20,048 bases of DNA from a virus. The stretch lies in the IMG/VR virus record IMGVR_UViG_3300017706_002632, positions 1 through 20,048 of that record, one strand, 5' to 3'. The position numbers were made by a program, and so were the translations under genes. The notes under the pieces are model-generated. The model made no database searches and was not told where the DNA came from. It saw only the letters and a program-made list of their open reading frames with translations. Positions 1 to 18,999 of this stretch are shown here, in pieces. Numbering within the stretch: the stretch's first letter is position 1; each line of letters begins with the position of its first letter.

Positions 1-569
1 AACTTACCGAAAATATAATTCATACTTTTAAATTTTATTACACCGAAGTAGATAATATAGAACATCTACAACATGAGGTAATAACATTTTTATTAAGTAA
101 AATCCACTTATTTGATCCATCACGTGGAGCTAAAGCATTTTCATACTTTGGTACGATTGCAAAAAGATATTTAATTATACAAAATACTCAAAACTATAAA
201 AAAAGAGTTGATAAAGCTCCAGTTGAAGAGTTATACCATGATTTAAGACATTCTTATGATATGGATTATAATCCTATGGAAAAGGATGATTTATCGGATT
301 TTTTAGATGAATATTTAGAGTATTGTACCGAAAATATTTACACTCTCTTTCCTAAAGAAAAGGATGCCAAAGTAGCGGATGCTATTTTAGAAATTTTTAG
401 AAAAAGAGAAAGTATAGACATTTTTAATAAAAAAGCTATTTATCTTTACATTAGAGAAATGGTTGATGTTAAAACTCCTCATATTACTCGAATAGCAGAT
501 CAATTAGGTGTTATTTTTAAAGATAATTTTATTTTCTATAAAGAATATGGGTATGTAGATTTTGATTGA
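1..569 (+). CDS. 55: T4 gp55-like late-transcription sigma factor, 5'-truncated by the window edge
   Basis: The frame is open from base 3 to the TGA at 567-569 (188 residues visible), so the gene begins upstream of the window; the internal ATG at 261 is not the start. A sigma region 2-like segment, FDPSRGAKAFSYFGTIAKRY at about residues 38-57, is followed by basic QNYKK and an acidic linker. A C-terminal helix-turn-helix-like stretch around VKTPHITRIADQLG follows. This pattern and the length match the gp55 family (T4 gp55 is 185 residues), which replaces the host sigma on RNA polymerase to read late promoters. The C-terminal end (YGYVDFD) is aromatic and acidic, reminiscent of the clamp-binding tail of T4 gp55, though that is only a resemblance. 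It would be the regulator of the structural genes that follow. Family assignment is fairly secure; the exact N-terminus is not visible. Confidence 0.82.
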   Translation, partial: LTENIIHTFKFYYTEVDNIEHLQHEVITFLLSKIHLFDPSRGAKAFSYFGTIAKRYLIIQNTQNYKKRVDKAPVEELYHDLRHSYDMDYNPMEKDDLSDFLDEYLEYCTENIYTLFPKEKDAKVADAILEIFRKRESIDIFNKKAIYLYIREMVDVKTPHITRIADQLGVIFKDNFIFYKEYGYVDFD

Positions 570-574
570 TTTCT

Positions 575-583
575 ATATTTATA
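575..583 (+). promoter_or_regulatory. ATATTTATA motif, copy 1 (candidate late promoter or start element)
   Basis: ATATTTATA lies in the 17-nt gap between the sigma-factor stop and the ATG at 587, ending 3 nt before that ATG. The same 9-mer recurs in the other large gaps of this window. The 3-nt spacing is too short for a classical -10 box with a leader, so a leaderless transcript or a translational role must be considered. Confidence 0.4.
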
Positions 584-586
584 GTC

Positions 587-934
587 ATGGGACAGTTAGA
601 CAAAAATATATTTGGTAAGAAAAAATTTTCCGACATTTTAGAGGAAATTTACACTAATCAAAAAAAGAAAGAAGAACAAATTTCTACTCTTATATCAGAA
701 CTAAAACCTCTTATTCAAGATATTGGAGATGCTACTCTTGTTGTTCCCCTCCTTAAGGAATATTTAGAAATTTCTGTTAAAAATGATGAGCAGCTTATTA
801 AAATGGCTACTATCATTCAAAGGGCTGTTCAAAGTGATGGGGTTGATGATGGTAACTTTGGTATGACCGAAGATGAAAAGCAACAGTTATTAAATGAAGT
901 AAAAAAATTCGGGGAGGATAAAAAGAAAAAATAA
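587..934 (+). CDS. Small hydrophilic protein of unknown function following the late sigma factor
   Basis: This is a 115-residue, charged, mostly helical protein that I do not recognise. A TTG at 566 would extend the frame by seven residues (ISIFIV...), but it overlaps the sigma stop and covers the shared ATATTTATA motif, so I chose the ATG at 587. Residues 13-21 (KFSDILEEI) resemble the N-terminus of the kinase at 19000. The middle is helical (IQDIG...LLKEYLEISVKND) and the tail is lysine-rich (GEDKKKK). The stop overlaps the next ATG by one nucleotide (TAATG, 932-936), so translation is probably coupled to the spike gene. Its size and position beside a gp55-like gene invite comparison with the T4 late co-activator gp33 (112 residues), but I see no sequence similarity to it. 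It could equally be a small virion or assembly protein. Confidence 0.7.
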   Translation: MGQLDKNIFGKKKFSDILEEIYTNQKKKEEQISTLISELKPLIQDIGDATLVVPLLKEYLEISVKNDEQLIKMATIIQRAVQSDGVDDGNFGMTEDEKQQLLNEVKKFGEDKKKK

Positions 935-2139
935 TGCCCAATCAATTTTATGGTGTTTCTGCTCTTACTAGAACAACTGAACTTGCATCTAATGTCCAAC
1001 CAGATACAAGTAGTGATATAATATCAGTAAGAGTTAAGGATATCATATTAGATGATACCCATCCTCAATTTAAAAAATATGGGGAATGGAATGGAGTTGG
1101 AACTATATTTTTTGATTTAGTTGATTTCCCTTTTGGTGAAAACGTAGTTAATACCGCTCGTCCTTTATTCTCAAATAATAAATTTTACCCCTTAATTAAT
1201 GAATTAGTATCGTTAGTTTTTCTTGCATCTACCGAAACTCAAACTAATACCAACATAACCGAGGCCTATTATTTACCCCCCATTAACATATGGAACAGCC
1301 AACATCATAATGCCCTCCCCGATCCTACTACGGAACTGAGTGAAAATACTACACAAGATTATCAAAATGCTGAAGGAGGTACATCTCAAGATGTGAGAAG
1401 GGTTTATGATAATTCAACCAACATAGAATTAGGTGAAGGTTTTAATGAACAAATTAATACTCATCCTCTTTTAATGTTTGCAGGGGATAATTTAATTGAG
1501 GGGAGGTGGGGTAATTCTATAAGATTAGGAAGTGTAATAGAAAAAAATAATAATTATCCTATTACTATTATAAGAAATGGGCAACCTCTAAATACTAATG
1601 TAGAAGGATGGGTACCCATTAAAGAGGATATAAATAATGATATTTCATCTATATATTTAAGTGAAACTCAATCTTTAAATTTAGATGCATCAAGTATATC
1701 ATATGATAGTTACCCTTCAATTCCCGAGAGTATAACTAATTATGATCAAAATCAAATAATTATCAATTCGGGTAGATTAGTTTTTAATTCAAAATCTAGT
1801 GATATTTTATTATCTTCCAATAAAAGTATAAATTTAAATACTCCTACTACGATTAATATTGATTCTAAAGAAACTTACGTAGCCTCAAATAAAATATTTT
1901 TAGGGGATAAACAAGCAACCGAGCCCCTCCTTAAAGGAGATATTACTGTAGCGCAACTTAACTCCATTATTGATGGTTTAATCCAATTTTTTACAGTGTA
2001 TGGAAAAGAACCTTCCCCTTATAAACCTGCATCAACTCCTCTATCCAATAGCATAGTAGGTACTTTAAATTCTGTTAAAGCTACTCTAAATAGATCAGGA
2101 CAGGGTGGAGCTAAATCTAACCGTAATTTTACAATGTGA
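934..2139 (+). CDS. 5: Baseplate spike protein, gp5-like (OB-fold plus beta-helix, no lysozyme domain)
   Basis: The 401-residue protein has an N-terminal half that reads like the OB-fold of gp5/VgrG-type spike proteins: SVRVKDIILDD, then FFDLVDFPFG, then ARPLFSNNKFYPLINELVSL, ending in YYLPPINIW. A middle segment contains EGRWGNSIRLGS. Roughly residues 280-330 form short alternating strands (SDILLSSNKSINLNTPT, INIDSKETYVASNKIFLG), the pattern of the triple-stranded beta-helix of gp5/VgrG needles. It would sit at the centre of the baseplate and puncture the cell envelope. T4 gp5 (575 residues) carries a lysozyme domain between these two parts; here the protein is shorter and no lysozyme sequence is apparent. 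It starts at a TAATG overlap with the gene before and its own TGA overlaps the next ATG. The spike assignment is by pattern, not by a database match. Confidence 0.7.
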   Translation: MPNQFYGVSALTRTTELASNVQPDTSSDIISVRVKDIILDDTHPQFKKYGEWNGVGTIFFDLVDFPFGENVVNTARPLFSNNKFYPLINELVSLVFLASTETQTNTNITEAYYLPPINIWNSQHHNALPDPTTELSENTTQDYQNAEGGTSQDVRRVYDNSTNIELGEGFNEQINTHPLLMFAGDNLIEGRWGNSIRLGSVIEKNNNYPITIIRNGQPLNTNVEGWVPIKEDINNDISSIYLSETQSLNLDASSISYDSYPSIPESITNYDQNQIIINSGRLVFNSKSSDILLSSNKSINLNTPTTINIDSKETYVASNKIFLGDKQATEPLLKGDITVAQLNSIIDGLIQFFTVYGKEPSPYKPASTPLSNSIVGTLNSVKATLNRSGQGGAKSNRNFTM

Positions 2140-3074
2140 TGGCTAGTGAATTTTGTAAAATACCCCCTCAAGATGATACTAAAAATATATTAGATCTACT
2201 TCCCCCATTACCTAGTATTAATAAAATAGCGGATTTAATCAATATTGAAGTAGGTAATTTAAAAATTAAATCTACTAATAAAGTAAAAGAATTACTTCTT
2301 GATTTTAAAGAAGGAATATGCCCTACACAACAGCAAATTAATAAATTTATTGGGATACGGAATAATATTGTTGAATCTTTGACTAAAGTGTATAATAAAG
2401 TAAACAGGTTATCAAATAATATTTCCGGCATAAGTAATTTTTTATCTGTTATATTAACAGGTATAAAAATAGCTAGTGGGGTAGTAAGAGGAATTACCAT
2501 AGGAGGAGCTGCTATTCCTTTCCCACTCCCTACTGCTGTTAATTCTGTAGTAGAAGGGGGACAAACTTCAATTGAAAAGGCTAAATTTAAAAATACTGGG
2601 GACCAGAAATTGGTTCCTTTGATAGGGGGGATAATATCAGCTAATATAGCTGTTAAATTATTTGCATCTGCCCTAAGGGAATTAATCTGTACTATAGAAG
2701 CTTTGGATATTTCATTAATAGAATGTTCCTTTCCACCTATAGTTAATGGAGTTGAACCCACTGAAGGTGAAATTGAGGATTTTAGGGATGGGGTTAGAGG
2801 AAGTTTAACCCCCATTTCTCCAGATGTGATAACATTTATAGAACAAGATGTAGAGGAACAAGAAAGTAGTATTACAAATAGTGCTTATAGGGGATTTATA
2901 TTTGAAATTGAAGAAATTCCTTTTTCTCCCACTGTTAATAGAAGACAAGCTTTAGCTAAAAACTCAAATGGAATTACTTTACTTCAAACAGAACTATCTT
3001 TTACTTCTACTCCAGATGTTCTTATTCAAGAATTAAAGCTAGTAATAGATAGAGATAATTTAAAAGCAGAGTAA
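2139..3074 (+). CDS. Hydrophobic structural protein of unknown function in the baseplate block
   Basis: The start is the ATG at 2139, which overlaps the preceding TGA by one nucleotide (TGATG); the GTG at 2136 in the same frame is a less likely start. The 311-residue protein has a proline-rich N-terminus (LDLLPPLPSINKIADL) and a helical region. Two strongly hydrophobic stretches follow, at about residues 100-130 (FLSVILTGIKIASGVVRG onward) and 158-185 (LVPLIGGIISANIAVKLFAS). The C-terminal third is acidic and mixed. Such hydrophobic helices could cross a membrane or pack in a virion, for example a baseplate-hub, tape-measure-like or injected protein; its place between the spike and gp25 favours a hub component. 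I do not recognise the family. A 215-codon open frame on the opposite strand is a shadow. Confidence 0.75.
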   Translation: MASEFCKIPPQDDTKNILDLLPPLPSINKIADLINIEVGNLKIKSTNKVKELLLDFKEGICPTQQQINKFIGIRNNIVESLTKVYNKVNRLSNNISGISNFLSVILTGIKIASGVVRGITIGGAAIPFPLPTAVNSVVEGGQTSIEKAKFKNTGDQKLVPLIGGIISANIAVKLFASALRELICTIEALDISLIECSFPPIVNGVEPTEGEIEDFRDGVRGSLTPISPDVITFIEQDVEEQESSITNSAYRGFIFEIEEIPFSPTVNRRQALAKNSNGITLLQTELSFTSTPDVLIQELKLVIDRDNLKAE

Positions 3075-3078
3075 TTAA

Positions 3079-3087
3079 ATATTTATA
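3079..3087 (+). promoter_or_regulatory. ATATTTATA motif, copy 2
   Basis: ATATTTATA sits in the 17-nt gap between the genes ending at 3074 and starting at 3092, ending 4 nt before the ATG. An ATG at 3087 that overlaps the motif reads only ATG AAA TGA, so it is not a gene start. A gap here is notable because most neighbouring baseplate genes overlap. Confidence 0.4.
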
Positions 3088-3091
3088 TGAA

Positions 3092-3421
3092 ATGAAACAG
3101 ACCGCATTAAAATCATTAATTAAACAAGCCGTTAAGGAAGCCATACAAGAAGAATTAAAAGAAATTCTTTTAGAAGCAGTACGTGCCCCTAAACAACAAG
3201 TTATAGAACATACTCAACCCCAAAAGGTTGTTGATGGTCCCTCTGTGAGTTCCACAGAACAAAGAACTGCTTATCAAAATATAATGGGAGATATGAAAGC
3301 CCAATTCACATCTCAAAATGTTCCTAAACCTTTCAACCCCCAAGGAGGAGCACCTGGTATGGATCTCCCCTCAGGAGAAGTTAATATGGATCAAATAATG
3401 GGATTAATGAGTAGCAAGTAA
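3092..3421 (+). CDS. Small helical protein of unknown function preceding gp25
   Basis: The protein has 109 residues. Residues 1-30 form one long amphipathic helix (MKQTALKSLIKQAVKEAIQE and onward), rich in Lys and Glu and containing several (L/I)xE tripeptides (IQE, LKE, LLE). The rest is low-complexity and rich in Gln, Pro, Gly and Met (KPFNPQGGAPGMDLPSG), ending MDQIMGLMSSK, and is probably flexible. It is preceded by its own ATATTTATA motif and its TAA overlaps the gp25 ATG (TAATG, 3419-3423), so it is probably co-translated with the wedge genes. It could be a small baseplate, chaperone or scaffold-like protein. The (L/I)xE sites would suit cleavage by a T4-type prohead protease, but that is speculative and I assign no function. 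Confidence 0.7.
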   Translation: MKQTALKSLIKQAVKEAIQEELKEILLEAVRAPKQQVIEHTQPQKVVDGPSVSSTEQRTAYQNIMGDMKAQFTSQNVPKPFNPQGGAPGMDLPSGEVNMDQIMGLMSSK

Positions 3422-3873
3422 TGGCTATAAAACAAACTAACATATTTCCTATTGATCAACAACCTCGGAATGCTGTTGGTTTGGCTTATCCCTTTTCTAC
3501 ATTTGCTATCTCGGGATCTGATCCTTATGCTGTAAGAGGAGGTGATGAAACTCCTTTTAAATTAAACTATACTACTAAAGATCAAATTAAATCTAATTTA
3601 ACTATTTTTTTTACTACTAATAAGGGAGAACGTCCTTTAAATCCCAATTATGGGGGTGGTTTAAAAGATATTGTATTTGAACAGCTTACTGAAAATACTT
3701 TTGAAATAGTAGAAAAAAGAATAAAAGATAATTTAGCAATATTCTTCCCAGAAGTTAAACTAGTTGAATTAAAAGTATTAGAGGTTCCTGATAATAATGA
3801 ATTAAGAATAGTTATGTCTTACACAGTTTTTAATACAAACGAAGATACATTAGAAATTAATTTTAACTTATAA
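3421..3873 (+). CDS. 25: Baseplate wedge protein, gp25/GpW-like
   Basis: The 150-residue protein matches the gp25 family. The typical core reads IKSNLTIFFTTNKGERPLNP followed by NYGGGLKDIVFEQL, with the conserved glycine/Glu-Arg-Pro turn at residues 69-72. Next come KRIKDNLAIFFPEVKL and a terminal beta strand (IVMSYTVFN). T4 gp25 is 132 residues; the extra length is N-terminal (LAYPFSTFAISGSDPYAV). In contractile tails gp25 joins the wedge to the inner baseplate and primes sheath assembly. It is followed immediately by gp6 through a TAATG overlap (3871-3875), which agrees with the two proteins acting in the same wedge. Assignment is confident. Confidence 0.88.
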   Translation: MAIKQTNIFPIDQQPRNAVGLAYPFSTFAISGSDPYAVRGGDETPFKLNYTTKDQIKSNLTIFFTTNKGERPLNPNYGGGLKDIVFEQLTENTFEIVEKRIKDNLAIFFPEVKLVELKVLEVPDNNELRIVMSYTVFNTNEDTLEINFNL

Positions 3874-5729
3874 TGGCTACAAGTAAAGATATAAAATACA
3901 TAAATAGGGATTTTGATAATTTTAGGAATAACCTTTTAGAATTTTCTAAAACTTATTTTCCTTCTACATATAATGATTTCAGTGCTAACTCTCCTGGTTC
4001 TTTATTTATTGAAATGGCATCTTATGTAGGAGATGTACTTTCATTTTATTTAGATAACCAAGTACAGGAAACTTTCCTTCAATATGCTCGTCAAGAACCC
4101 AATTTGTATGAATTGGCTTATATGATGGGGTATAAACCTAAAGTTACTACTCCTTCTTTAGTAGAGGTAGATATTTTTCAAACAGTCCCCGCTAAAGATG
4201 AAGGGGGCACTGATGTCCCTGATTATGATTATGCTCTTCTGATTTCAGAGAATGCTTCCCTGTCTTCTACTTTAGGATCAAATGTTAATTTTTTAATGGA
4301 AGATCCTGTTGATTTTACATTTTCATCTTCATTAGATCCCACAGAAATTAGTATTTATACTACTACGGGTGGAACTGATGTTGATACTTTTTTATTGAAA
4401 AAAACAAGGAAAGCAAAATCATCTACCATTAGTACAATAACTCGTACATTTACAGAAGTAGAACGTTACCCCATTATTACTATAAATGATTCTAATATAA
4501 TAGGAATATTGGATATAGTAGACAGTGATGGAAACATTTGGTATGAAGTTCCATATTTAGCTCAAGAAACTATATTTGAACCTATAAAAAACTCTCAATT
4601 AAATGATCCTAATAGTTATTCTAATGAGAGTGAAGTTCCTTATATATTAAGGTTAAAAAAGGTGCCAAGGAGATTTGTTAGTAGATTTAAGTCAAAATCC
4701 CAATTAGAAATTCAGTTTGGAGCAGGTACTAACCCTGATAATGTAGATGAAGAAATAACTCCCAACCCTAATAATGTAGGATTAGGTCTTCCTTATACTC
4801 AAAATAAAATTACAACAGGATTTGATCCTCAAAACTTTTTATTTACAAATACTTATGGTATTGCTCCTGCTAATACTACTCTAACTATAAGATATTTAAT
4901 AGGAGGTGGAGTAACTTCAAATGTAGAAGCTAATGCATTAAACAGTATAACAGGTAATATAAAATTCCAAAGACCCGATTTAGTAGATACTACAGCTCAG
5001 GATGCCTTTGATTCTTTAATTATTACTAACCCATCATTAGCCACAGGAGGAAGTGATGGAGATTCAATTCAGGAAATTAGAAATAATTCCTTAGGAAATT
5101 TTGGTTCCCAACTAAGAACTGTAACTCCTCAAGATTATTTAACTAGAGTTTTAAGTTTACCCCCTCAATTTGGTGCTATATCAAAAGCATTTATAGAAAA
5201 ACAAAGAGCTGGGAAATTAGGGGTTAGTGAAGAAGCTTCATTATTAGATTTATATGTATCTGCTTATAATTCACAAAAACAATTAGTAAATGCCTCTACA
5301 GCATTGAAAAAGAATATTTCTACTTACATATCTCAATATAGAAGTGCTAATGATTCGATACGAATTAAAGATGCTTTTATTATTAACATAGGAATTGATT
5401 TTAGTTTAATAATTCTTCCTAATTACAACTCAAATGAAGTAATAGCCAAATGTATTTCAACTCTTCAAAATTATTTTAATATTGATAATCAACAGATAAA
5501 TCAACCTATTTTACTTAAAGAAGTATTTATTTTATTAGATAAAATTGAAGGTGTTCAAACTGTAGACACCGTAGAAATCACTAATAAGGCAGGAGGTGAT
5601 TACTCAGAATATGGTTATGACATACAAGGTGCTACTCAAAGCAATATCATTTACCCATCAATAGACCCTTCTATATTTGAAGTTAAATTTCCATCTGCAG
5701 ATATTAGAGGAAGAGCAAGAACATTTTAA
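3873..5729 (+). CDS. 6: Baseplate wedge protein, gp6-like (baseplate J family)
   Basis: At 618 residues it is close to T4 gp6 (660). The N-terminus is characteristic: INRDFDNFRNNLLEFSKTYF, then SPGSLFIEMASYVGDVLSFY at residues 40-59, then YELAYMMGYKP. A baseplate-J-like core lies at roughly residues 390-450 (DGDSIQEIRNNSLGNFGSQL, then RTVTPQDYLTRVL and FGAISKAFIEKQ). The C-terminal part (IGIDFSLIILPNYN onward) resembles the domain by which gp6 dimerises. gp6 forms the continuous ring of the inner baseplate around the hub. It starts within the gp25 stop codon and ends 2 nt before the next gene. No frameshift or truncation is seen. Assignment is confident. Confidence 0.88.
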   Translation: MATSKDIKYINRDFDNFRNNLLEFSKTYFPSTYNDFSANSPGSLFIEMASYVGDVLSFYLDNQVQETFLQYARQEPNLYELAYMMGYKPKVTTPSLVEVDIFQTVPAKDEGGTDVPDYDYALLISENASLSSTLGSNVNFLMEDPVDFTFSSSLDPTEISIYTTTGGTDVDTFLLKKTRKAKSSTISTITRTFTEVERYPIITINDSNIIGILDIVDSDGNIWYEVPYLAQETIFEPIKNSQLNDPNSYSNESEVPYILRLKKVPRRFVSRFKSKSQLEIQFGAGTNPDNVDEEITPNPNNVGLGLPYTQNKITTGFDPQNFLFTNTYGIAPANTTLTIRYLIGGGVTSNVEANALNSITGNIKFQRPDLVDTTAQDAFDSLIITNPSLATGGSDGDSIQEIRNNSLGNFGSQLRTVTPQDYLTRVLSLPPQFGAISKAFIEKQRAGKLGVSEEASLLDLYVSAYNSQKQLVNASTALKKNISTYISQYRSANDSIRIKDAFIINIGIDFSLIILPNYNSNEVIAKCISTLQNYFNIDNQQINQPILLKEVFILLDKIEGVQTVDTVEITNKAGGDYSEYGYDIQGATQSNIIYPSIDPSIFEVKFPSADIRGRARTF

Positions 5730-5731
5730 TT

Positions 5732-6862
5732 ATGGCTACATATAAATTATTTCCTACTAAAGATTCTACTATTTATTCAAAATCTCCCATTAAAAATACT
5801 GGGGTAGATTCTATTTTAGAAGCCAATGTTGATACTGATCAAAAAGTAAGCAGATTTCTAATTCAATTTTCTCAAGATGAAATTAATTCTTTAATAGACA
5901 CTAGAATAGGTTCTGGGTCTTTTATGTCAGTAAATTTGAAAAGTAATATAGCTGATATTGAAAATTTGAATGTTGATACCACTTTGGAAGTATATCCTAT
6001 TTCGGGTTCATGGGATATGGGTACTGGGAGATTTAATGATAACCCCGAAACAAAAAATGGTTGTAGTTGGATTTTTAGAGGTTATTCGGGATCTGATGAA
6101 TGGGTAACTAGTGGTTTTGAAAGTTACTCAACAGGTTCTTATCTTAGTGGAGATGAAGGTGGAGGTAATTGGTATACAGGGTCGGCTTTGGGATTAGATG
6201 TAACTCAATCTCAAGTTTATAACTATACTAGTAATAAAGATTTAAAAGTTAATGTTACTAATGTTATTAAAACATGGTATAGTCAATCTAAAGGACTCAC
6301 TAATGATGGATTTAATAATGATGGTTTTATTATAAAACAAGATTCAGGAAGTGAAGGAGGAGGACTATATAAAAACGCCCAACTTAAATTTTATTCTATA
6401 GATACTAACACAATATATCCTCCTGAATTAGAATTTAAATGGAAAGATTCCACATTTGACACAGGATCTTCTACTATTAACATAATAAATAATTCGGAAT
6501 TAGTTGCTTCCTTAGATAACAATTTTGGAGAATTTAGAAGGGATAGTATACATAGGTTTAAAATCAACTGTCGTCCTCAGTTTCCTCCTAGAGTGTATCA
6601 AACATCTTCTGTATATCTTAATCAACATTATCTCCCCGAAGCTTCTTCATATGCTTTAAAAGATTTGAATACTAATGAATATGTGATAGATTTTGATGAT
6701 ACTTACACTAAAATAAGTGCAGACTCTACTAGTAGTTATTTTGATTTGTATATGAAGGGATTAGAACCCGAAAGATATTATCAATTGCTATTAAAAGTTC
6801 CTCTCGATAATCAAATTCTTATATTAGATGATAATTACTATTTTAAAATAATAAATGAGTAA
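5732..6862 (+). CDS. Baseplate-associated structural protein with a DNRLRE-like N-terminal domain
   Basis: This is a 376-residue protein. Residues 1 to about 220 read like the DNRLRE beta-sandwich family: an opening YKLFPTKDSTIYSKSPIKNT, a strand RFLIQFSQDEI, Trp/Gly-rich turns (SGSWDMGTGRFNDNPETKNG), then DLKVNVTNVIKTWYSQ and a terminal NDGFIIKQ. DNRLRE domains occur in secreted and surface proteins and are linked to carbohydrate or surface contact. The remaining 150 residues are a different, beta-rich part (HRFKINCRPQFPPRVYQT and onward, ending PLDNQILILDDNYYFKI). The gene sits 2 nt after gp6 and overlaps the next gene by 8 nt, so it is probably a baseplate or wedge-peripheral protein. The domain call is from pattern memory and the precise virion location is unknown. 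Confidence 0.7.
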   Translation: MATYKLFPTKDSTIYSKSPIKNTGVDSILEANVDTDQKVSRFLIQFSQDEINSLIDTRIGSGSFMSVNLKSNIADIENLNVDTTLEVYPISGSWDMGTGRFNDNPETKNGCSWIFRGYSGSDEWVTSGFESYSTGSYLSGDEGGGNWYTGSALGLDVTQSQVYNYTSNKDLKVNVTNVIKTWYSQSKGLTNDGFNNDGFIIKQDSGSEGGGLYKNAQLKFYSIDTNTIYPPELEFKWKDSTFDTGSSTINIINNSELVASLDNNFGEFRRDSIHRFKINCRPQFPPRVYQTSSVYLNQHYLPEASSYALKDLNTNEYVIDFDDTYTKISADSTSSYFDLYMKGLEPERYYQLLLKVPLDNQILILDDNYYFKIINE

Positions 6863-7229
6863 ACAAAAAATAAATTTAACTAGGATAGTTTATAATAAAG
6901 ATGATTATCAAAAAACCATTGATACCTCTTTTAATGAATTTACCCTCCCTTCTCCTGAGATTGAAGATAACTCAATTTCAATAGAACAATTTTTTGTCTA
7001 CTATAATCAATTATTTTTTGATATACCCAAAACAGGGGTTGAATCTCATAATACTCTTATTCAGCAGAGTACTGAATATGTTGGGGATCAACAAGTTAAC
7101 AATGAAATTGAAGCATTAATACAAGAAGTAAACGTTTTAAGAGCTCAATTAATAGAATCACAGACTGAATTGACAGAACTTCAACAAAATAATGCTGAAT
7201 TAGCTTTAATTGTAGCCAATAATGCCTAA
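6855..7229 (+). CDS. Small protein with a C-terminal coiled coil, probable baseplate component
   Basis: The protein has 124 residues. Residues 1-60 are mixed and contain an aromatic patch (IEQFFVYYNQLFFDIP). Residues 82-120 form a clear heptad coiled coil (EIEALIQEVNVLRAQLIES and onward, ending ELALIVANNA). It overlaps its upstream neighbour by 8 nt and the downstream giant gene by 8 nt, so it should be made in step with both. A small coiled-coil protein between wedge genes could be a trimerisation, linker or chaperone subunit. No family recognised. Confidence 0.72.
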   Translation: MSKQKINLTRIVYNKDDYQKTIDTSFNEFTLPSPEIEDNSISIEQFFVYYNQLFFDIPKTGVESHNTLIQQSTEYVGDQQVNNEIEALIQEVNVLRAQLIESQTELTELQQNNAELALIVANNA

Positions 7230-11244: not shown

Positions 11245-12821
11245 TGTTATCAAAATATGTAAATTACACTAAAGAAGAACTTATTGAAGAACAAAATAAT
11301 CTTAGGATTAATACTGGGGAGGATATAAAGGGTGCCATTGGAGGATTGCCTGTTGTTGAACAAACCCAAGAATATTTTGCTGTTTTTGATGAAGCAGGGT
11401 CAACAGGTCCTGAGATTATAGATAAAACTCAACTTAGAATTAGTTATTTAGTAGACTCCCAACTTAATACTTCTAAACCAGTAGAAGGACAACCTGCTGC
11501 CTTGAATGCTACTCAAAATTTTGGCAAACAAGAAGAATGTATAGTAAGGGCGGATAATGCTACAGTTTTAAACCAAAATCTTACAGGCAAACAATCTATA
11601 TATGATATTGGAGCCTTAGCATTGATTTCTACTACTGAATTTGGGAAGAGTAATGATGAGTATATTACTACTATGAGTTTCAACACAGTTGGGGGTCAAA
11701 TTGTAGGAGAAGCTCAAAATCTTTCATCTCAATTCAGACAAAGTAGTTTTAATGAATTAACTTCAAATGGAGAGTTAACAGCGGAATTTGACAGTATAAG
11801 CACCAATTTATCCCAATCAGAGGGTGGTTATGATTGGGTAGAATTTAATAATGATAGTACTTTTCTATTTAAACAGGATACAACTGTAGCAGGAACTAGG
11901 ATAAGATTTCAATTTTCAGGAAACGCTGCAGTTCAAGATGTTTATTTTGGAGAACAAATTACACTAGAAACTCAATTAGTATTTCAACCTGGGTCTGGAG
12001 GTCCCGAAGAAATCTTGGCTACGGGAGGGAGTTCAATTTTGAATGGTGGGGGTGGTGGGAGTGCTCAATATACACCTCAAAACTACATAGTGCCTATAAA
12101 CATGGAAACTCCATTTAGGAATTTTTTTCAAGATGATCAAATGTTTGTTAGATTAATAAGAACTTCTCCTAGTGGAATTAATAGCAATACAACAATTAAA
12201 TTTACCTCAGCTACATTTTCAACTCAACAAGAAACCCCCCCAGGAGATGTATTGATAATAGGAGTTAATGCTTGTACTTCTTCATATTGGAGTGGATTTG
12301 AAACTGTGGGGGATTCATCAGATCTTAATAAAAATTATAGCATATTAACAGCATCTCAAGATTTTTCTTCTTTTCTAGATGGAAACCATATTCAAAGAAT
12401 GAATAGTGCTAGCGTTGCTTTTGATCCTAATAATGATGGTAATACATTTAATCCGATTCAAACTGCATTAACTTTTGAAGTTGGTGATGAAATTAGATTT
12501 GAGTTTAATAAAAACAAAGTTTATAAAATAATTAAATCTATTGGAGGAGATGATGGTAGAAAAGTATTTATCCATCCCGCAGTGGATACAGTACAACTTG
12601 AGGTTCTAGGATCTAATGGAACTCAACTAAATCATTTTACTCATTATAGAATAATTCCTAATGGAGGATATTTAATAATTAATCAAAAGAAAGATAATCA
12701 AGCAGGTCCTGAACAAAATTTTAGGGGGATAATTACTCCACAATTCCCCTCTATAGATCTTGAAAGAAAAGGAGATGAATTAATTTATGAATTAAAACAA
12801 GCGGGGATAATAGAAACTTAA
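11244..12821 (+). CDS. Structural protein at the end of the baseplate operon, function unknown
   Basis: The protein has 525 residues. It opens with a helical N-terminus (LSKYVNYTKEELIEEQNNLR). An alternating beta-strand body follows, with a low-complexity glycine turn (SILNGGGGGSAQY, about residue 267) and a compact C-terminal part (HYRIIPNGGYLIINQKK, then PQFPSIDLERKGDELIYEL). The composition is that of a virion protein, with few charged helices and many Ser, Thr, Asn and Gly. It starts at a TAATG overlap with the giant wedge-like gene and is followed by a 30-nt gap with a regulatory motif, so it closes the baseplate transcription/translation unit. By position it could correspond to gp8- or gp10-like wedge components, but I cannot recognise a family. 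Confidence 0.7.
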   Translation: MLSKYVNYTKEELIEEQNNLRINTGEDIKGAIGGLPVVEQTQEYFAVFDEAGSTGPEIIDKTQLRISYLVDSQLNTSKPVEGQPAALNATQNFGKQEECIVRADNATVLNQNLTGKQSIYDIGALALISTTEFGKSNDEYITTMSFNTVGGQIVGEAQNLSSQFRQSSFNELTSNGELTAEFDSISTNLSQSEGGYDWVEFNNDSTFLFKQDTTVAGTRIRFQFSGNAAVQDVYFGEQITLETQLVFQPGSGGPEEILATGGSSILNGGGGGSAQYTPQNYIVPINMETPFRNFFQDDQMFVRLIRTSPSGINSNTTIKFTSATFSTQQETPPGDVLIIGVNACTSSYWSGFETVGDSSDLNKNYSILTASQDFSSFLDGNHIQRMNSASVAFDPNNDGNTFNPIQTALTFEVGDEIRFEFNKNKVYKIIKSIGGDDGRKVFIHPAVDTVQLEVLGSNGTQLNHFTHYRIIPNGGYLIINQKKDNQAGPEQNFRGIITPQFPSIDLERKGDELIYELKQAGIIET

Positions 12822-12828
12822 TTTTATA

Positions 12829-12837
12829 ATATTTATA
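12829..12837 (+). promoter_or_regulatory. ATATTTATA motif, copy 3
   Basis: This copy lies in the largest gap of the window (12822-12851) and ends 14 nt before the ATG at 12852. It is embedded in an AT-only inverted repeat (12825-12842, 7-nt arms, loop TTTA). With this spacing a promoter giving a very short leader is possible. It separates the baseplate block from the fibre block. Confidence 0.45.
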
Positions 12838-12851
12838 TTATATACATACAA

Positions 12852-13508
12852 ATGGGATACTTAAATAACACAATAGTAACAGTAGATGCTATTTTAACTA
12901 ATAAAGGAAGAGAATTATTAGCTAGAGGGGATGGTTCATTTAGAATCACTCAATTTGCTTTAGCCGATGATGAGATTGATTATACTCTATATAACCCATC
13001 CCATCCTTCAGGTAGTGCTTTTTATGGACAAGCATTAGAAAATATGCCCCTATTAGAAGCCTTTCCTGAGACTACTCAAAATCTAAAATATAAACTAGTT
13101 ACCCTCCCTAGAGGAACAGCTAAAATGCCAGTGCTTGATGCAGGGTTTAGTGCAGTTACTTTAAAACAAGGTGCCTCATTAGCTATAACTCCTCAAACTT
13201 TAAATTATCTTGGTAATAATCAAGTATTTGAAAATAGTGGATATACTGTTACAATTGCTGATGTGAGAACCTTAAGCACATTTAATGGAGTAGGCATAAA
13301 CACAGAACAAGCACAAGCTTTAAATTCCACTACCACTATAGGAACCAATGTATCTAGTACAGTTGTAGGTACTACTGTTAATTTAACAGCAACTACTGTT
13401 AATACTTTATTTGGTAGTAATACTCAACTTAATACTACTTTAACTATAGTAGGTAGAGACAGTGGAGCAAGATTAACAGTTCCCGTAACAATAACCAAAA
13501 CATCATAA
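12852..13508 (+). CDS. Conserved-looking structural protein, first gene of the fibre block
   Basis: The protein has 218 residues. The N-terminal 100 residues look compact and well ordered (VTVDAILTNKGRELLARGDG, then SFRITQFALADDEIDYTLYN). They are followed by HPSGSAFYGQALENMPLLEA and a strand pair around KYKLVTLPRGTAKMPVL. The C-terminal half is very rich in Thr, Val and Asn (TTIGTNVSSTVVGTTVNLTA) and reads as an all-beta, possibly Ig-like, domain ending LTVPVTITKTS. This is consistent with a virion surface or fibre-attachment protein. It follows the motif-bearing 30-nt gap and is 3 nt from the next structural gene. I do not recognise a named family. Confidence 0.72.
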   Translation: MGYLNNTIVTVDAILTNKGRELLARGDGSFRITQFALADDEIDYTLYNPSHPSGSAFYGQALENMPLLEAFPETTQNLKYKLVTLPRGTAKMPVLDAGFSAVTLKQGASLAITPQTLNYLGNNQVFENSGYTVTIADVRTLSTFNGVGINTEQAQALNSTTTIGTNVSSTVVGTTVNLTATTVNTLFGSNTQLNTTLTIVGRDSGARLTVPVTITKTS

Positions 13509-13511
13509 TAA

Positions 13512-14534
13512 ATGTCATTTAAACGACTTGATCCTGAGGATTTTTTAATTAGTGCCGATAGCGTTACAGCGGGAGCATGGGAAGATGAAACTCCTACTTT
13601 AACAACATTTTTTACATCTTCAACACAAGAAGCAGGTGCAAGTGGGGAGTATTATTTAGATTTATTTAAAGATAATACAGCAACCACTGCCGGGTTACCA
13701 ACCCAATTTTCAGTAGCCTTTGGAGATTCCGTTGGGTCAGGATCTATACTATTTGATCCGGGAATTGATGGAAAATCTCCAAGCTCTACAGTATTTGGTC
13801 AATTCCAAAATATTGTATTGGGAGATGAAAATAACAGTTTTATTTTTGGAGATGTAACTCCTGATACTCAAAGTTTATATGTTATATCAGTAGATAGAGC
13901 CAAATATAAAGGAAACATATTTCCAGGAACTCTGGATTTAAGGTTATCTTCTGATGGTTCTAGTATTCTTCAATTAACTGATAATAGTAATGATGTTAGT
14001 ACTGTTACTTTTAATGAAGCCGGAAGAGTTTATCAAGTAGTTTCTGGGTCTAATGGGTCTGCTATAACAGGAGGAGGACAAACTGCTCAAGGATCTTATG
14101 GATTATTTCTCCCGGATATTGGTTGTATAGTTTTAAATGCCGCTGCCCTAGATTTAACTTATGGTGCAGGAGGAGGATGTAGTTTAGGTACTGTACGAGA
14201 TTCTGATACTAATAACAACAATGTTAGAAGATTATATGAATCCCTTAAAAGTGCTGCTAATTTTACTTTGAACAGCCAAGAAAACCTTACATCAGATTTC
14301 ATTTTTATAAGAGCCCGAAACTCAGAATATAATTATTCAGAAAACCCATCATTTATTAGTGGATCTGAGGGTGAGGTTACTTATACGGAATTTATTAATT
14401 CTCCCCAAACCTTTATTACTAGTGTTGGGATGTATAATGATAATAATGAATTATTAGCGGTAGCAAAGTTAAGCAAACCGTTAAAGAAAGATTTTACTAA
14501 AGAAACTCTTATTAGAGTTAAGCTAGACTTCTGA
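13512..14534 (+). CDS. Tail or fibre-associated structural protein, shares its C-terminal module with the next gene
   Basis: The protein has 340 residues. The N-terminus (MSFKRLDPEDFLISADSVTA) is followed by a long Gly/Ser/Thr-rich beta region. The C-terminal 78 residues (FIRARNSEYNYSENPSFISG; FITSVGMYNDNNELLAVAKL; SKPLKKDF) closely parallel those of the gene at 14538 (FNYSVNP; FVTTVGLYNDNKELVAVGKL; SQPL). The two therefore appear to be paralogues or share a module, perhaps a docking domain on the tail. It is separated from its neighbours by only 3 nt on each side, with no ribosome-binding site. No enzymatic motif is visible. It is probably a structural protein of the tail tip or fibre base. 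Confidence 0.72.
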   Translation: MSFKRLDPEDFLISADSVTAGAWEDETPTLTTFFTSSTQEAGASGEYYLDLFKDNTATTAGLPTQFSVAFGDSVGSGSILFDPGIDGKSPSSTVFGQFQNIVLGDENNSFIFGDVTPDTQSLYVISVDRAKYKGNIFPGTLDLRLSSDGSSILQLTDNSNDVSTVTFNEAGRVYQVVSGSNGSAITGGGQTAQGSYGLFLPDIGCIVLNAAALDLTYGAGGGCSLGTVRDSDTNNNNVRRLYESLKSAANFTLNSQENLTSDFIFIRARNSEYNYSENPSFISGSEGEVTYTEFINSPQTFITSVGMYNDNNELLAVAKLSKPLKKDFTKETLIRVKLDF

Positions 14535-14537
14535 TGA

Positions 14538-15506
14538 ATGAGCGCTTACAAACAATTTCTTTCATCTGATATCGTAATAACTCCTTTTGAGACTAATAAA
14601 TCTTTTAGTTTTACTGGGGAGAGTGACTTAAATGCTTCTAATGTAAAAATTGATAGATTTATAGGGAAATCAGAAGAAGAACAAAATTTTAATCCATCTA
14701 GTTGGAGCACAACAGGTAACGTAAAACAAGAATATAAGGATTTAATATATAATTCAATTAAAAACTTATATTATGGTAATTATACAAAAGGGGGAAATGA
14801 TGGTTCTTCCACTTCTGCTTCGGGAAGTTATGATAATTCTTTACCAACAGATTTATATTTTGAAAGATTTTTCCCATCCTCCGATGGGTATTATTTAAAT
14901 GATATTGGGGTACTTTCAATTCCATCAAAACTTTATGGGAACCGAATTCAACCTAAGTCTTTCAAATTTACATCATCAAGTGTGGTAATTATTGATGATG
15001 GGGAAGGAAATTTAAAAGTAGGAGATAAATTTGTAGGTAATATTTTTTATAATCAAGGTATAGCTGTTATTGTGGGTGCCGGGAGTAATATTAATGATGC
15101 AGGAGCTTCATACGGCAACGCCGTGTATAACACTAATGTATATGGTACAACAGAAGATGTTAACATAGCATCTAATTTTATGACTTATGAAGATGTTGTT
15201 TTAGAATTTTCATCATCATATGATATACTTGAAACTCAATATAAATGTACTATAGATTCTAATGAATTTAACTACTCAGTAAATCCAAGATTACTTTCGA
15301 ATGATTTAAGAGGAGAAAATAAAATTTTAGATTTAGGAAGTTCCCAATATAGTGACTTTGTTACATCTTCTTATTTTTCACCATTTGTAACTACTGTGGG
15401 ATTATATAATGATAATAAAGAATTAGTAGCAGTTGGAAAATTATCTCAACCTCTTCTAACCTCACAAACCACAGATACTACCATATTTATTAATATAGAC
15501 AGATAA
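14538..15506 (+). CDS. Tail or fibre-associated structural protein, paralogous C-terminus to the preceding gene
   Basis: The protein has 322 residues. Start chosen at the ATG at 14538 (MSAYKQFLSSDIVITPFETN); the ATG at 14534 that overlaps the previous stop is in another frame. The N-terminal 230 residues contain a tyrosine/glycine-rich part (LYYGNYTKGGNDGSS; YFERFFPSSDGYYLND) and beta strands (KVGDKFVGNIFYNQGIAVIV). The final 90 residues repeat the module seen in the upstream gene (NEFNYSVNP, then VTTVGLYNDNKELVAVGKLS). The different N-termini suggest that one conserved anchoring module carries different outer parts. It ends 1 nt before the fibre gene. Confidence 0.72.
   Translation: MSAYKQFLSSDIVITPFETNKSFSFTGESDLNASNVKIDRFIGKSEEEQNFNPSSWSTTGNVKQEYKDLIYNSIKNLYYGNYTKGGNDGSSTSASGSYDNSLPTDLYFERFFPSSDGYYLNDIGVLSIPSKLYGNRIQPKSFKFTSSSVVIIDDGEGNLKVGDKFVGNIFYNQGIAVIVGAGSNINDAGASYGNAVYNTNVYGTTEDVNIASNFMTYEDVVLEFSSSYDILETQYKCTIDSNEFNYSVNPRLLSNDLRGENKILDLGSSQYSDFVTSSYFSPFVTTVGLYNDNKELVAVGKLSQPLLTSQTTDTTIFINIDR
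15483..15491 (+). promoter_or_regulatory. Weak ATATTTATT variant upstream of the collagen-like fibre gene
   Basis: A one-mismatch version of the recurrent motif lies inside the 3' end of the preceding gene and ends 16 nt before the fibre ATG. Because it lies in coding DNA of this AT-rich genome it may be chance; the spacing resembles copies 3 and 5. Confidence 0.2.
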
Positions 15507-15507
15507 C

Positions 15508-16812
15508 ATGGCAACACTAAATAAAGCAGGAATTACAGATGGGCAAACAATTGCAGCTGCTCAAATTTCTCAATCCATTGTAGCTTTAAATGGAGAAGAA
15601 ACTTATGATATTATAATCAATGGTTCTCTTACTTCAAACGACGGAGTAACTTTAACCAATATCCCAACAGTTACTCCTGGAGCTGGTGATTTTTTAGTTT
15701 TAGATGGAACAACAGTAAAAACTACAACGGCGGGTGCTTCAGGTACTTCAGGTTCTTCAGGTACTTCAGGTGCCAATGGTGCCACTGGTGGCTCAGGTAC
15801 TTCGGGTTCATCAGGTACTTCAGGTTCATCAGGTACTTCGGGATCATCAGGTACCTCAGGTTCTTCAGGTACTTCTGTTGGTACTAGTTTAGAAGTTAAT
15901 CAAATTACCTTTGCGGATAGCACAGAGACTATCTCAGGGTCAAATAATTTTGTATTTAACCATAGTAATAGTCAGGTATTCATTACATCTTCCGCAGGAT
16001 TTTCTCCATTATCTTTAGGTAATAAAAGAACCACCACAACTAATTCAGGAACAGAAGTCTCTTCAATTCAATTTTTAGGAGGTTTTAATGGAAGTTATTA
16101 TACAGCGGGTGAGATTGTATTAAAAGCAGCATCTAATTATTCTGCTACTTCTCAACCTACATTTATGGAAATAAATTTAGGGGATGGAGATTCAGCAAAT
16201 AGCACAAATGAGGTTTTATCTTTAGATGGAGAGGATCAAAGCATTTCCATTCCTGGTTATAAGTTAACCAATGATGATAATAGATTTGATACAAGTGTTT
16301 TAACGACACTTCCTTTATGTGCTTCAAATGGTAATTTAAAGTATCATATAGGTGGAAAGCAACTCATGAAAGCCATTGATTTAGGAACATTAGATGCATC
16401 TAATGCCACTTCGATGTCAATTGGAGACCCAATTCCATACCAGAACCCCGGAACAGGAGATGATCCTTTAGATGGGTTATTATATGAAGGAAGTATTAAT
16501 AACCTTGGAATTAATGGAGGTAGCACCTTTACTATTCAATTAGAAGATAATGTAGCAGATATTTTACAATCCGGAGATGAATTCAATGTACAATTTAAAT
16601 GTTTTAGTATACAGGCTACATGTACTTTTAAATTTAAATACACATTAGGAAATGATACAAAAACTAGAAATATCCCTGATTCAAGTGCAGGAAGTTTGTC
16701 TGTAACAACCGATAATAGTAATGATTTGGTATGTATAAAATTTCAATACTTTGAAAGAGATGCACAAAATCACGGCATTTGGCCCATATCGGCATACATC
16801 CTAGAAAGTTAA
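15508..16812 (+). CDS. Tail fibre protein with collagen-like Gly-X-Y repeats
   Basis: The protein has 434 residues. The N-terminal 70 residues are probably the virion-attachment part (MATLNKAGITDGQTIAAAQI; LVLDGTTVKTTT). Residues 76-123 are 16 uninterrupted Gly-X-Y triplets, mostly GTS and GSS with one GAN, one GAT and one GGS, and no proline: a collagen-like trimeric rod. A beta-rich shaft follows (SLEVNQITFADSTETISGSN). The C-terminal region of about 160 residues contains several Cys and aromatic residues (FNVQFKCFSIQATCTFKFKY; FQYFERDAQNHGIWPISAYI) and is a plausible receptor-binding tip. Collagen-like stalks of this kind are known in phage fibres. It is the last structural gene before the DNA-metabolism block. 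The fibre role is well supported; the receptor cannot be told. Confidence 0.8.
   Translation: MATLNKAGITDGQTIAAAQISQSIVALNGEETYDIIINGSLTSNDGVTLTNIPTVTPGAGDFLVLDGTTVKTTTAGASGTSGSSGTSGANGATGGSGTSGSSGTSGSSGTSGSSGTSGSSGTSVGTSLEVNQITFADSTETISGSNNFVFNHSNSQVFITSSAGFSPLSLGNKRTTTTNSGTEVSSIQFLGGFNGSYYTAGEIVLKAASNYSATSQPTFMEINLGDGDSANSTNEVLSLDGEDQSISIPGYKLTNDDNRFDTSVLTTLPLCASNGNLKYHIGGKQLMKAIDLGTLDASNATSMSIGDPIPYQNPGTGDDPLDGLLYEGSINNLGINGGSTFTIQLEDNVADILQSGDEFNVQFKCFSIQATCTFKFKYTLGNDTKTRNIPDSSAGSLSVTTDNSNDLVCIKFQYFERDAQNHGIWPISAYILES
15733..15876 (+). repeat. In-frame 9/18-bp tandem repeat encoding the Gly-X-Y stalk
   Basis: Sixteen 9-bp units run in tandem; much of it is an 18-bp period of the type GGTACTTCAGGTTCATCA. 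Third positions vary little (TCA, TCT or TCG for Ser; ACT or ACC for Thr). All units keep the reading frame. Such DNA can gain or lose whole units by slippage and so change stalk length. Confidence 0.9.
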
Positions 16813-16819
16813 AAAAATA

Positions 16820-17269
16820 ATGAATTGGTTATATAATGGAAAAGAAATCACAGACATATCACAATTTCCCTCAAACACATTTGGGTTTATATATGAAGTG
16901 ATTACCCCCGAGGGGAAAAAATATGTGGGGAAAAAAGTTTTATACCACAATCAAAAGAAAAAACTTACTAAAGTTGAACTCTCAGAACAAACAGGACGGG
17001 GAAGAAGGAAGACATTTAAAATAGTTCAAAAAGAAAGCGATTGGAAGAAATATTATGGTTCCAATAAACATCTTAAAAATCAAATTACTAAAGGAGAAGT
17101 TACGCTGGAAAGTTTGGGGAAACAAATTATTCAAGTAGCCTCCAATAAAAAACATCTTACATACTTGGAGACTAAATATCTCTTTCAACTTGAAGTTTTA
17201 GAAAACCCAGATTTGTACTATAACGATAATATATTAGGAAAATTTTTCACATCAGACTTTGATTCCTAA
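16820..17269 (+). CDS. GIY-YIG family endonuclease
   Basis: The 149-residue protein carries the GIY-YIG signature in variant form: GFIYEV at residues 22-27 and KYVGKK at 34-39. A basic segment with several Arg and Lys (GRGRRKTFK) follows, then WKKYYGSNKHLK at 75-86, and the expected catalytic glutamate in LTYLETKYLF (Glu117), with an Asn-rich end (YYNDN). The domain fills the protein; there is no separate DNA-binding domain, so it is a minimal nuclease. In T4-like phages such enzymes can be homing endonucleases or act in DNA processing or host DNA breakdown. The gene is complete and sits at the junction between fibre and replication genes, 7 nt after the fibre stop. Substrate unknown. Confidence 0.78.
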   Translation: MNWLYNGKEITDISQFPSNTFGFIYEVITPEGKKYVGKKVLYHNQKKKLTKVELSEQTGRGRRKTFKIVQKESDWKKYYGSNKHLKNQITKGEVTLESLGKQIIQVASNKKHLTYLETKYLFQLEVLENPDLYYNDNILGKFFTSDFDS

Positions 17270-17281
17270 ATTAGAATTCGT

Positions 17282-17290
17282 ATATTTACA
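17282..17290 (+). promoter_or_regulatory. ATATTTACA motif, copy 4
   Basis: A one-mismatch copy of the recurrent motif lies in the 24-nt gap before the primase gene, ending 3 nt before the ATG at 17294. Together with the preceding T it reads TATATTTA, as in copy 1. Confidence 0.35.
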
Positions 17291-17293
17291 TCA

Positions 17294-18217
17294 ATGGTAA
17301 ATCAATTACTAGTATCCTTAATGGACTCTGTCTTGGGCAAAGGTAAACAAACATCCAGAGGTAACCATGCTTACCACTGCCCGTTCTGTAAACATCACAA
17401 ACCTAAAATGGAGGTGAATTTTACGGAAAATAAAAAGGGACATAATCCTTGGCATTGTTGGGTTTGTAATACTAGAGGTAAAACCATTCCTAATCTCCTT
17501 AAAAAGATTGAGGCATATGATAAAATTGAAGAAGCTAAAAGGTTAATTCCTCAAGGATCATTTGTTGAAGAAACAATAGTTAAAAACGATCTGCACCTCC
17601 CTAAAGAATATACCCCTTTTATTGATAACCCCTCCAGCCTAATGGCTAGACATGCTTTGGCTTATCTAAAAAAAAGAGGGGTTACAATGGAAGATATGAT
17701 TAAATATCATATGGGGTATTGTGAAGAAGGAGAATATAGAAATATGATTATTATTCCCTCATACGATTATAAGGGGAATTTAAATTATTTCACTGCTCGA
17801 AGTTTTGAAAAGCAACCATTCCGTAAATATAAAAATCCATCAGTATCGCGTGATATTGTGCCATTTGAAATGTTTATAAACTGGAATAGCCCGTTGGTAT
17901 TATGCGAAGGACCATTTGACGCCATAGCCATCAAAAGAAATGCAATACCGCTGTTAGGAAAAAATATACAAACTAATTTAATGAAGAAAATCGTTTCTTC
18001 TAAAGTTGAAAAAATATACATAGCACTCGATAGTGATGCTATGAAATCTGCAATTAAATTTTGTGAAAAGTTTATGAATGAGGGTAAAGAGGTTCATTTA
18101 TTAGAAATGGACGATAAAGACCCTAGTGAGTTAGGATTCAAACTTTTTACTGAACTTATTCAAAAGTCCACCCCATTAACTTTATCGGGGCTTTTGGCTA
18201 GAAAATTAGCCCTATGA
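17294..18217 (+). CDS. DNA primase (zinc finger plus TOPRIM)
   Basis: The 307-residue protein has the layout of phage primases of the DnaG/gp61 class. An N-terminal zinc finger is formed by Cys29, Cys32, Cys55 and Cys58 (YHCPFCKHH and WHCWVCNTRG). A helical linker contains YHMGYC (138-143). The catalytic core contains MIIIPSYDYKGNLNYFTARS, FRKYKNPS, the TOPRIM glutamate in LVLCEGPFDAIAI (Glu205), and the DxD of ALDSDAM (Asp246, Asp248). It would make RNA primers at the replication fork; T4 gp61 is 342 residues. No helicase gene is adjacent in this window. It overlaps the next gene by 4 nt (ATGA, 18214-18217). A second Met at residue 10 is a possible alternative start if the upstream motif is a promoter. 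Confidence 0.85.
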   Translation: MVNQLLVSLMDSVLGKGKQTSRGNHAYHCPFCKHHKPKMEVNFTENKKGHNPWHCWVCNTRGKTIPNLLKKIEAYDKIEEAKRLIPQGSFVEETIVKNDLHLPKEYTPFIDNPSSLMARHALAYLKKRGVTMEDMIKYHMGYCEEGEYRNMIIIPSYDYKGNLNYFTARSFEKQPFRKYKNPSVSRDIVPFEMFINWNSPLVLCEGPFDAIAIKRNAIPLLGKNIQTNLMKKIVSSKVEKIYIALDSDAMKSAIKFCEKFMNEGKEVHLLEMDDKDPSELGFKLFTELIQKSTPLTLSGLLARKLAL

Positions 18218-18978
18218 AACAAATTAAAAAGAGTTATGGTAGAATATTAGAAATATCTGATGACCATAAACAAATAACCCTCCCAGATGGAAGATATTAC
18301 CAACGAAATGGAGAATATTATCCTTCTGTAACTTATGTATTAAGTCATTACCCCAAAGGTAAATTTTTTGAGGACTGGCTTAAAAAAGTAGGTTATGCTT
18401 CAGAACATATTGTAAAAAAAGCATCATCTGAAGGTACACAAGTATATGAAATGATTGAAGATTACCTTAATGGTAAAGAATTGAAATTTTTAGAGTATGG
18501 GGTTCCTATGTATCCTACACTTGTTTGGCAAATGTTTTTACGATTTGTTGATTTTTGGGAAGAATATAAACCAACATTAATTGAGGCTGAAGTCCATTTA
18601 TTTTCAGATAAATTAAAAGTAGCAGGTACTTGTGATATGGTGTGTGAAATCAATGGTGAATTATGGGTTATAGATTTTAAAACATCAAATCATCTTCAAA
18701 CCACATATGATTTACAAACTGCTATTTATTCTCAATGTTTTGAGGAATGTTTTGGTAAAAAAGTCAATCGCACAGGTGTGTTATGGTTAAAATCTTCAAA
18801 AAGAGGTCCTAAAAAGGGTGCAATGCAAGGTAAAGGGTGGGAAATGTATGAATCTAAACGTACACAAGAAGAAAATTTAAACATATATGGAGCTGTAAGG
18901 ACTTTATTTGATATAGAAAACCCAAATCATAAACCCGCATTTACTGAATTTCGCACCACAGCTAAAAGAGATTTGTAA
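18214..18978 (+). CDS. PD-(D/E)XK nuclease, Cas4/RecB-like
   Basis: The 254-residue protein has the motif order of Cas4/RecB-type nucleases. There is an early helix with EGTQVYEMIEDYLNG (73-87) and a glutamate in EAEVHLFSD (124-132). The metal-binding aspartate is in AGTCDMV (Asp141), DFKTS supplies Asp154 and Lys156, and the QTAIYSQ helix starts at Gln168. I see no cysteine set that would clearly bind an iron-sulfur cluster. It shares ATGA with the primase gene, so the two are probably translated together and act in replication, recombination or DNA-end processing. The gene is complete and no catalytic residue is missing. Confidence 0.82.
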   Translation: MKQIKKSYGRILEISDDHKQITLPDGRYYQRNGEYYPSVTYVLSHYPKGKFFEDWLKKVGYASEHIVKKASSEGTQVYEMIEDYLNGKELKFLEYGVPMYPTLVWQMFLRFVDFWEEYKPTLIEAEVHLFSDKLKVAGTCDMVCEINGELWVIDFKTSNHLQTTYDLQTAIYSQCFEECFGKKVNRTGVLWLKSSKRGPKKGAMQGKGWEMYESKRTQEENLNIYGAVRTLFDIENPNHKPAFTEFRTTAKRDL

Positions 18979-18986
18979 TATTTATA
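18978..18986 (+). promoter_or_regulatory. ATATTTATA motif, copy 5
   Basis: An exact copy lies in the 21-nt gap before the kinase gene, starting in the last base of the previous stop codon (TAA 18976-18978) and ending 13 nt before the ATG at 19000. The spacing is close to copy 3. Confidence 0.42.
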
Positions 18987-18999
18987 ACAAATACTCTTT

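Follow-up and report, generated by a model that had tools for sequence, protein, structure and literature searches.

Predicted late promoters of Immutovirus-like phages: a conserved ATATTTATA core in gaps between genes and a separate early-type promoter at the primase gene

Late genes of phage T4 are served by a promoter, TATAAATA, that is read by gp55; it consists of an 8-bp TATA box from -13, has no -35 element, and its transcription requires the sliding clamp (PMC2988020). Bacteroidetes sigma-A promoters carry a -33 TTTG and a -7 TAnnTTTG, with the start point 4-5 nt after the -7 box; the mRNAs of Flavobacterium johnsoniae are mostly leadered, 87% of leaders being longer than 10 nt (PMC6847099). 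Leaderless genes of other bacteria use TA signals, -10-like boxes about 12 nt before the AUG, with the start at or near the AUG (PMC3160421). The literature searched yielded no promoter map for aquatic Bacteroidetes myophages of the group considered here, and searches on the motif described below returned nothing relevant. Here we analyze a 20,048-bp stretch that makes up the complete virus record IMGVR_UViG_3300017706_002632 (the window), in whose gaps between genes a short word, ATATTTATA or ATATTTACA, recurs. Gene order in the window is collinear with the part of Flavobacterium phage vB_FspM_immuto that extends from baseplate to primase (Immutovirus; 46% identity in the baseplate protein, 45% in the primase): a sigma gene comes first, genes for baseplate and tail follow, and these lead on to a primase, an exonuclease and a P-loop kinase.

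Open reading frame (ORF) calling leaves exactly five gaps of at least 9 nt in the window (570-586, 3075-3091, 12822-12851, 17270-17293 and 18979-18999), and each of them contains ATATTTATA or ATATTTACA: the words start at 575, 3079, 12829, 17282 and 18978, at distances of 3, 4, 14, 3 and 13 nt from the ATG, respectively, exactly as an earlier note on this DNA had listed them. The window scan also finds an extra sense copy, ATATTTACA at 334 within the sigma ORF, and no copy on the minus strand. When bases were shuffled within the gaps, the word occurred in at most three gaps, once in 20,000 trials, and never in five of five; an exact 9-mer common to four gaps arose in 0 shuffled sets. A control with the reversed pattern is uninformative for ATATTTATA, whose letters are identical in reverse order. 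The word is directional and genus-wide: its sense:antisense counts in the gaps of relatives are 36:1, 28:1, 18:0 and 15:1, copies in their coding regions are few with the strands about balanced, and ATATTTAT is the top over-represented 8-mer in the gaps of six contigs (122 observed versus 11.8 expected under a second-order Markov model; 6 antisense). The generalization that every gap of at least 17 nt is occupied holds in this window but not beyond it: the three largest metagenomic relatives have the word in roughly 40-70% of 17-60 nt gaps, the share is lower in Immutovirus and in early regions, and the word is missing at overlapping or tightly packed junctions (gaps below 8 nt).

Four of the five sites, all on the plus strand, are predicted late promoter cores in which the sequence is conserved together with the gene that follows. 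ATATTTAT is present in 35/37 orthologous upstreams for the core at 575-583 (ATG at 587), 61/61 for 3079-3087 (ATG at 3092), 49/50 for 12829-12837 (ATG at 12852) and 13/13 for 18978-18986 (ATG at 19000), the last of which overlaps the final base of the preceding stop codon. Taken together, it is kept in 158/161 upstreams, in some cases those of orthologs at 27-40% protein identity. The class has the extended consensus ATATTTATAAYAAA and precedes 85 protein families, across which no conserved element, and hence no -33 box, lies upstream of the core; the first T of TAnnTTT is a T in only 39-43%, and a downstream AYAAA is specific to this class. A hairpin with a T run stands directly upstream of the late box in 15 of 43 testable wide gaps, versus 3% in shuffles. 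In the related phage Mel-JY01, the ATATTTAT core typically lies 31-40 nt before the ATG, with GGAG-like Shine-Dalgarno sequences between the two. Judged by sequence, the promoter class is real, strong and conserved, and most likely comprises the late promoters that Immutovirus-like phages use. Tandem late cores precede orthologs of gene 12852 at L088:16340-16394 and in L015, L012, L024 and L032, one at leader spacing and the other 4-5 nt before the ATG; the window retains the upstream copy only.

The fifth site precedes the DNA primase gene (17294-18217, plus strand; phrog_47, E 4.2e-47) and tells a different story. The predicted promoter has a -33 box, TTTG, at 17258-17261 (plus strand), within the end of gene 16820-17269, and, after a spacer of 19 nt, a -7 box, TATATTTA, at 17281-17288 (plus strand), which overlaps the 17282 word and ends 5 nt before the ATG. 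TTTG-N18-20-TAnnTT is found in 52/65 primase upstreams versus 2/161 for the four late-site genes (0/37, 0/61, 2/50 and 0/13), and ATATTTAT in 0/65. TATATTTA matches TAnnTTTG in its first seven bases, with A for G at 17288, a base at which relatives vary. Because the primase upstreams lack ATATTTAT and carry the published Bacteroidetes sigma-A pattern save its last base, the 17282 element is best classified as a host-type Bacteroidetes early promoter, TTTG-N19-TATATTTA, outside the late class. The element fits TTTG-N19-TATATTT of the sigma-ABfr promoter, and in the relatives the early class includes TTGG/TTAGG-type -33 boxes and TAnATTTA as well; the four late sites, by contrast, have neither the -33 box nor the first T. 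The suggestion of the earlier note, a late promoter read by a gp55-like sigma, is thus well supported for 575, 3079, 12829 and 18978 but does not fit 17282.

The same division emerges when no word is supplied. Seedless expectation-maximization motif discovery yields two classes: some contigs return ATATTTATA-AYAAAA, and from others comes a second motif (GGCTTACA... for G001, GTCGTACATTTATA for G003 and TTC.TATATTTAG.TAT for Immutovirus), with longer models of the second class reading TTAGGCTTACA...TATATTTACA, ATTTGGCTT...GTCGTACATTTATA and TTGcTT...TTC.TATATTTAG. In the complete Immutovirus genome, the first class precedes the terminase, sheath, tube, baseplate hub and other structural genes, and the second is crowded in the block of small genes at 61-76 kb; of sites with a single class, 10/17 late-type versus 1/29 early-type lie within the structural block (Fisher p 4e-5). 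Immutovirus (NC_055915) also has early and late boxes that overlap (TATATTTATA or similar) at 25026-25037, 130556-130567 and 149748-149759, as would suit transcription of the gene early as well as late. At 140-155 kb of G001 (L178), a long early promoter, TTAGGCTTACA...ACATATATTTACA, is present in repeated copies in one gene block, and the gaps of Mel-JY01 (PP395634) contain the repeated words CTTGCATA and ACCTAACA, possibly its early promoter elements.

What would read the late core? The first gene of the window (3-569, plus strand), the 5' end of which is cut by the contig end, encodes a phage sigma factor, an ortholog of Immutovirus gp118 and a distant homolog of T4 gp55. The conserved protein measures 225-270 aa, and its gene adjoins those of the baseplate; a helical region at the C-terminus makes it longer than gp55. 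Sigma70_r2 (sigma-70 region 2) matches the orthologous gene in five relatives, and phrog_234 (the gp55 family, late sigma) in four, Immutovirus gp118 included; hhalign aligns a 23-sequence sigma profile with eight gp55 proteins at E 4.8e-5 over 98 columns. Foldseek with the structure model (pLDDT 72) returns PDB entries that are mostly sigma factors and BFVD entries that are phage sigma factors, with modest E-values. A single T4 gp55 sequence matches the sigma alignment weakly, only the profile-profile comparison having succeeded, and the alignment profile found no match among PDB sequences. We infer that this sigma reads ATATTTATA from the co-occurrence of the two, from the T4 precedent and from Mel-JY01, in which the sigma is 33% identical and the ATATTTAT core is retained.

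The best joint explanation, to which we give a probability of about 0.78, is that the four ATATTTATA sites are late cores read by the phage sigma 3-569 and that 17282 is an early promoter. The proposed mechanism is as follows: ATATTTATA (extended ATATTTATAAYAAA) at 575, 3079, 12829 and 18978 would serve as the -10-like core of late promoters, acting alone, with no -33 box, via host RNA polymerase carrying the phage sigma; each core would start transcription anew in front of a small group of genes; and RNA synthesis would begin at conserved A residues 4-5 nt past the core, placing the start at the A of the AUG where the spacing is 3-4 nt, to give a leaderless mRNA, and leaving elsewhere a leader of at least about 9 nt. 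The Bacteroidetes-type promoter at 17282 would form its own, early class. The data establish the enrichment, its direction, the conservation, the split into two classes and the homology of the sigma; that this sigma reads this box, where transcripts start and that they appear late is inferred. Several observations weigh against this explanation: (i) the sigma matches are individually weak (Pfam E 1e-5 to 2e-3, PHROG E 1e-4 to 8e-3, best Foldseek PDB E 0.01); (ii) the G001 contig has the motif, yet no sigma gene was found there; (iii) LR756508 has a sigma ortholog, but the motif is not enriched in the 42 kb examined; and (iv) the clamp loader (phrog_168) is absent from the complete Immutovirus, though it would be expected for T4-style activation.

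How can a promoter stand 3-4 nt before a start codon? The earlier note took such spacings to argue against an ordinary promoter with a leader. Over the 85 families, the spacing from late box to ATG ranges from 1 to 60 nt and is bimodal, with 15 families at 3-4 nt, 7 at 5-9 and 23 at 13-15; families with 1-8 nt cluster at 3-4 nt (15/24, p 1e-4), and this spacing is a genuine second mode. At sites with spacing of at least 9 nt, A occupies positions 12-13, that is, 4-5 nt beyond the core, in 84-87%. Because a spacing of 3-4 nt puts the predicted start on the A of the AUG, the spacing statistics predict that some phage mRNAs are probably leaderless; the short spacing is real, as the earlier note saw, but fits such mRNAs and hence is no argument against a promoter. 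In gene 3092 orthologs the spacing is 3-5 nt in 52/61, and the transcript start is predicted at A3092 (leaderless). The primase, an early gene, is also predicted to be leaderless, because exactly 5 nt separate the -7 8-mer from the ATG in 45/65 orthologs and Bacteroidetes starts lie 4-5 nt after the -7 box. The arrangement recalls the leaderless-gene TA signals, with a -10-like box some 12 nt before the AUG and a start at or near it, but here concerns Bacteroidetes phage genes and only part of the sites. Leaderless mRNA would be unusual for the phylum, given the predominance of leaders above 10 nt in F. johnsoniae, whose mostly leadered mRNAs (PMC6847099), together with the fact that starts in or at the AUG normally preclude ordinary initiation, lend some weight to another account: that the 3-4 nt promoters mainly serve genes farther downstream, while read-through mRNA provides for translation of the adjacent gene and no leaderless message is made. 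This account, which applies to short-spacing sites only and is compatible with their being promoters, is possible but rather unlikely; against it stand the clustering at 3-4 nt and the spacing kept in the gene 3092 and primase orthologs.

That all five sites are one class, host sigma-A (sigma-ABfr) promoters without a strong -33 used throughout infection, is improbable. The late word and the early -7 box TATATTTA do share ATATTTA, and the -33 signal of promoters in F. johnsoniae is often slight (PMC6847099); however, the late class does not keep the first T, invariant in TAnnTTT, and has a downstream AYAAA of its own, and the classes split by gene block and by ortholog group (0/65 versus 158/161). 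On these differences the single-class reading was rejected. Far less probable still is the idea that the word is an element at translation starts, an option raised in the earlier note, and serves Bacteroidetes ribosomes that do not use Shine-Dalgarno pairing: the word often lies a few nucleotides before the ATG, and Bacteroidetes prefer A at -3 (PMC6847099), but a ribosome-binding role is strongly argued against, and was rejected, because the word keeps no fixed distance from the ATG (1 to 60 nt), is absent before genes with gaps below 8 nt, stands behind terminators and, in Mel-JY01, has the Shine-Dalgarno sequence between itself and the ATG. Chance in gaps that are 87% A+T in the window is a negligible explanation, refuted by the shuffles, the strand asymmetry and the conservation among orthologs.

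If the four cores are late promoters read by a gp55-type sigma, how close are they to those of T4? Both have an 8-bp -10-like box without a -35 element, AT-rich sequence downstream and a short distance to the inferred start point, and both lie upstream of structural genes in a genome with a gp55-type sigma, here by remote homology only. They differ in the box itself, where the central AA is replaced by TT: TATTTATA keeps 6/8 positions of TATAAATA in the same orientation, so that the earlier description of the word as a reverse-complement-like T4 form is misleading. The conserved downstream AYAAA and the many sites with a predicted leader of 0-1 nt are further differences. Sense TATAAATA is not enriched in the gaps (in G001, 6 sense and 32 other), whereas T4 under the same pipeline gives 10:0.

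In T4, the sliding clamp gp45 and the co-activator gp33 activate late promoters, and transcripts start about one turn downstream of the box, late in infection. Immutovirus differs from T4 also in having no recognisable clamp or clamp loader; its complete genome has A-family polymerases. The Pfam clamp models PF02916 and PF00712 gave no match, but in G001 and Mel-JY01 the same models overlook the candidate clamp, and absence alone is therefore not taken as proof. In those two, a clamp loader resembling that of T4 is accompanied by a candidate clamp similar to PCNA: an unannotated protein of about 246-250 aa (L175:15730-16467 and L232:25755-26504) adjoins the B-family polymerase and the clamp loader and has no Pfam match. 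Its Foldseek resemblance to PCNA is weak and comes from a low-confidence model (pLDDT 51), with no usable relatives for a better fold; it is probably a divergent sliding clamp. Clamp coupling is unlikely to be a general feature of the late box, because the complete Immutovirus has no detectable clamp loader.

A late box, an early box and a likely sigma would allow early and late genes to be separated from sequence alone, and would carry late transcription of the gp55 type beyond the clamp-dependent model set by T4. Taken as a whole, a gp55-like late system adapted to Bacteroidetes, with an TATTTATA box, a long sigma, no obligatory clamp, starts on the AUG and leaderless mRNAs both early and late, is a tentative proposal with odds short of even. 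The phages offer a testable case of leaderless mRNAs in a phylum without Shine-Dalgarno pairing; if true, such messages would be made in a host that gives most of its own mRNAs a leader.

The genes downstream of the predicted late promoters, all on the plus strand, include orthologs of Immutovirus gp117 (587-934, with the same start in 37 loci, after the 575 promoter) and gp107 (12852-13508, after the 12829 promoter). The gene that follows the 3079 promoter (3092-3421) encodes 109 aa, and baseplate wedge genes come next. The 18978 promoter precedes a P-loop kinase (19000-19794; AAA_33/Zeta-toxin-like fold; PF06414, E 9.7e-16, and PF13671, E 2.5e-6), which is more likely an enzyme of nucleotide metabolism than a toxin, despite the Zeta-toxin-like Pfam match; a cytidylyltransferase-like ORF after it runs off the record. 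The 149-aa gene at 16820-17269 has PHROG matches named NAD synthetase and homing endonuclease, and its positional counterpart in Mel-JY01 is labeled GIY-YIG; the label NAD synthetase on the Immutovirus counterpart may be a misannotation.

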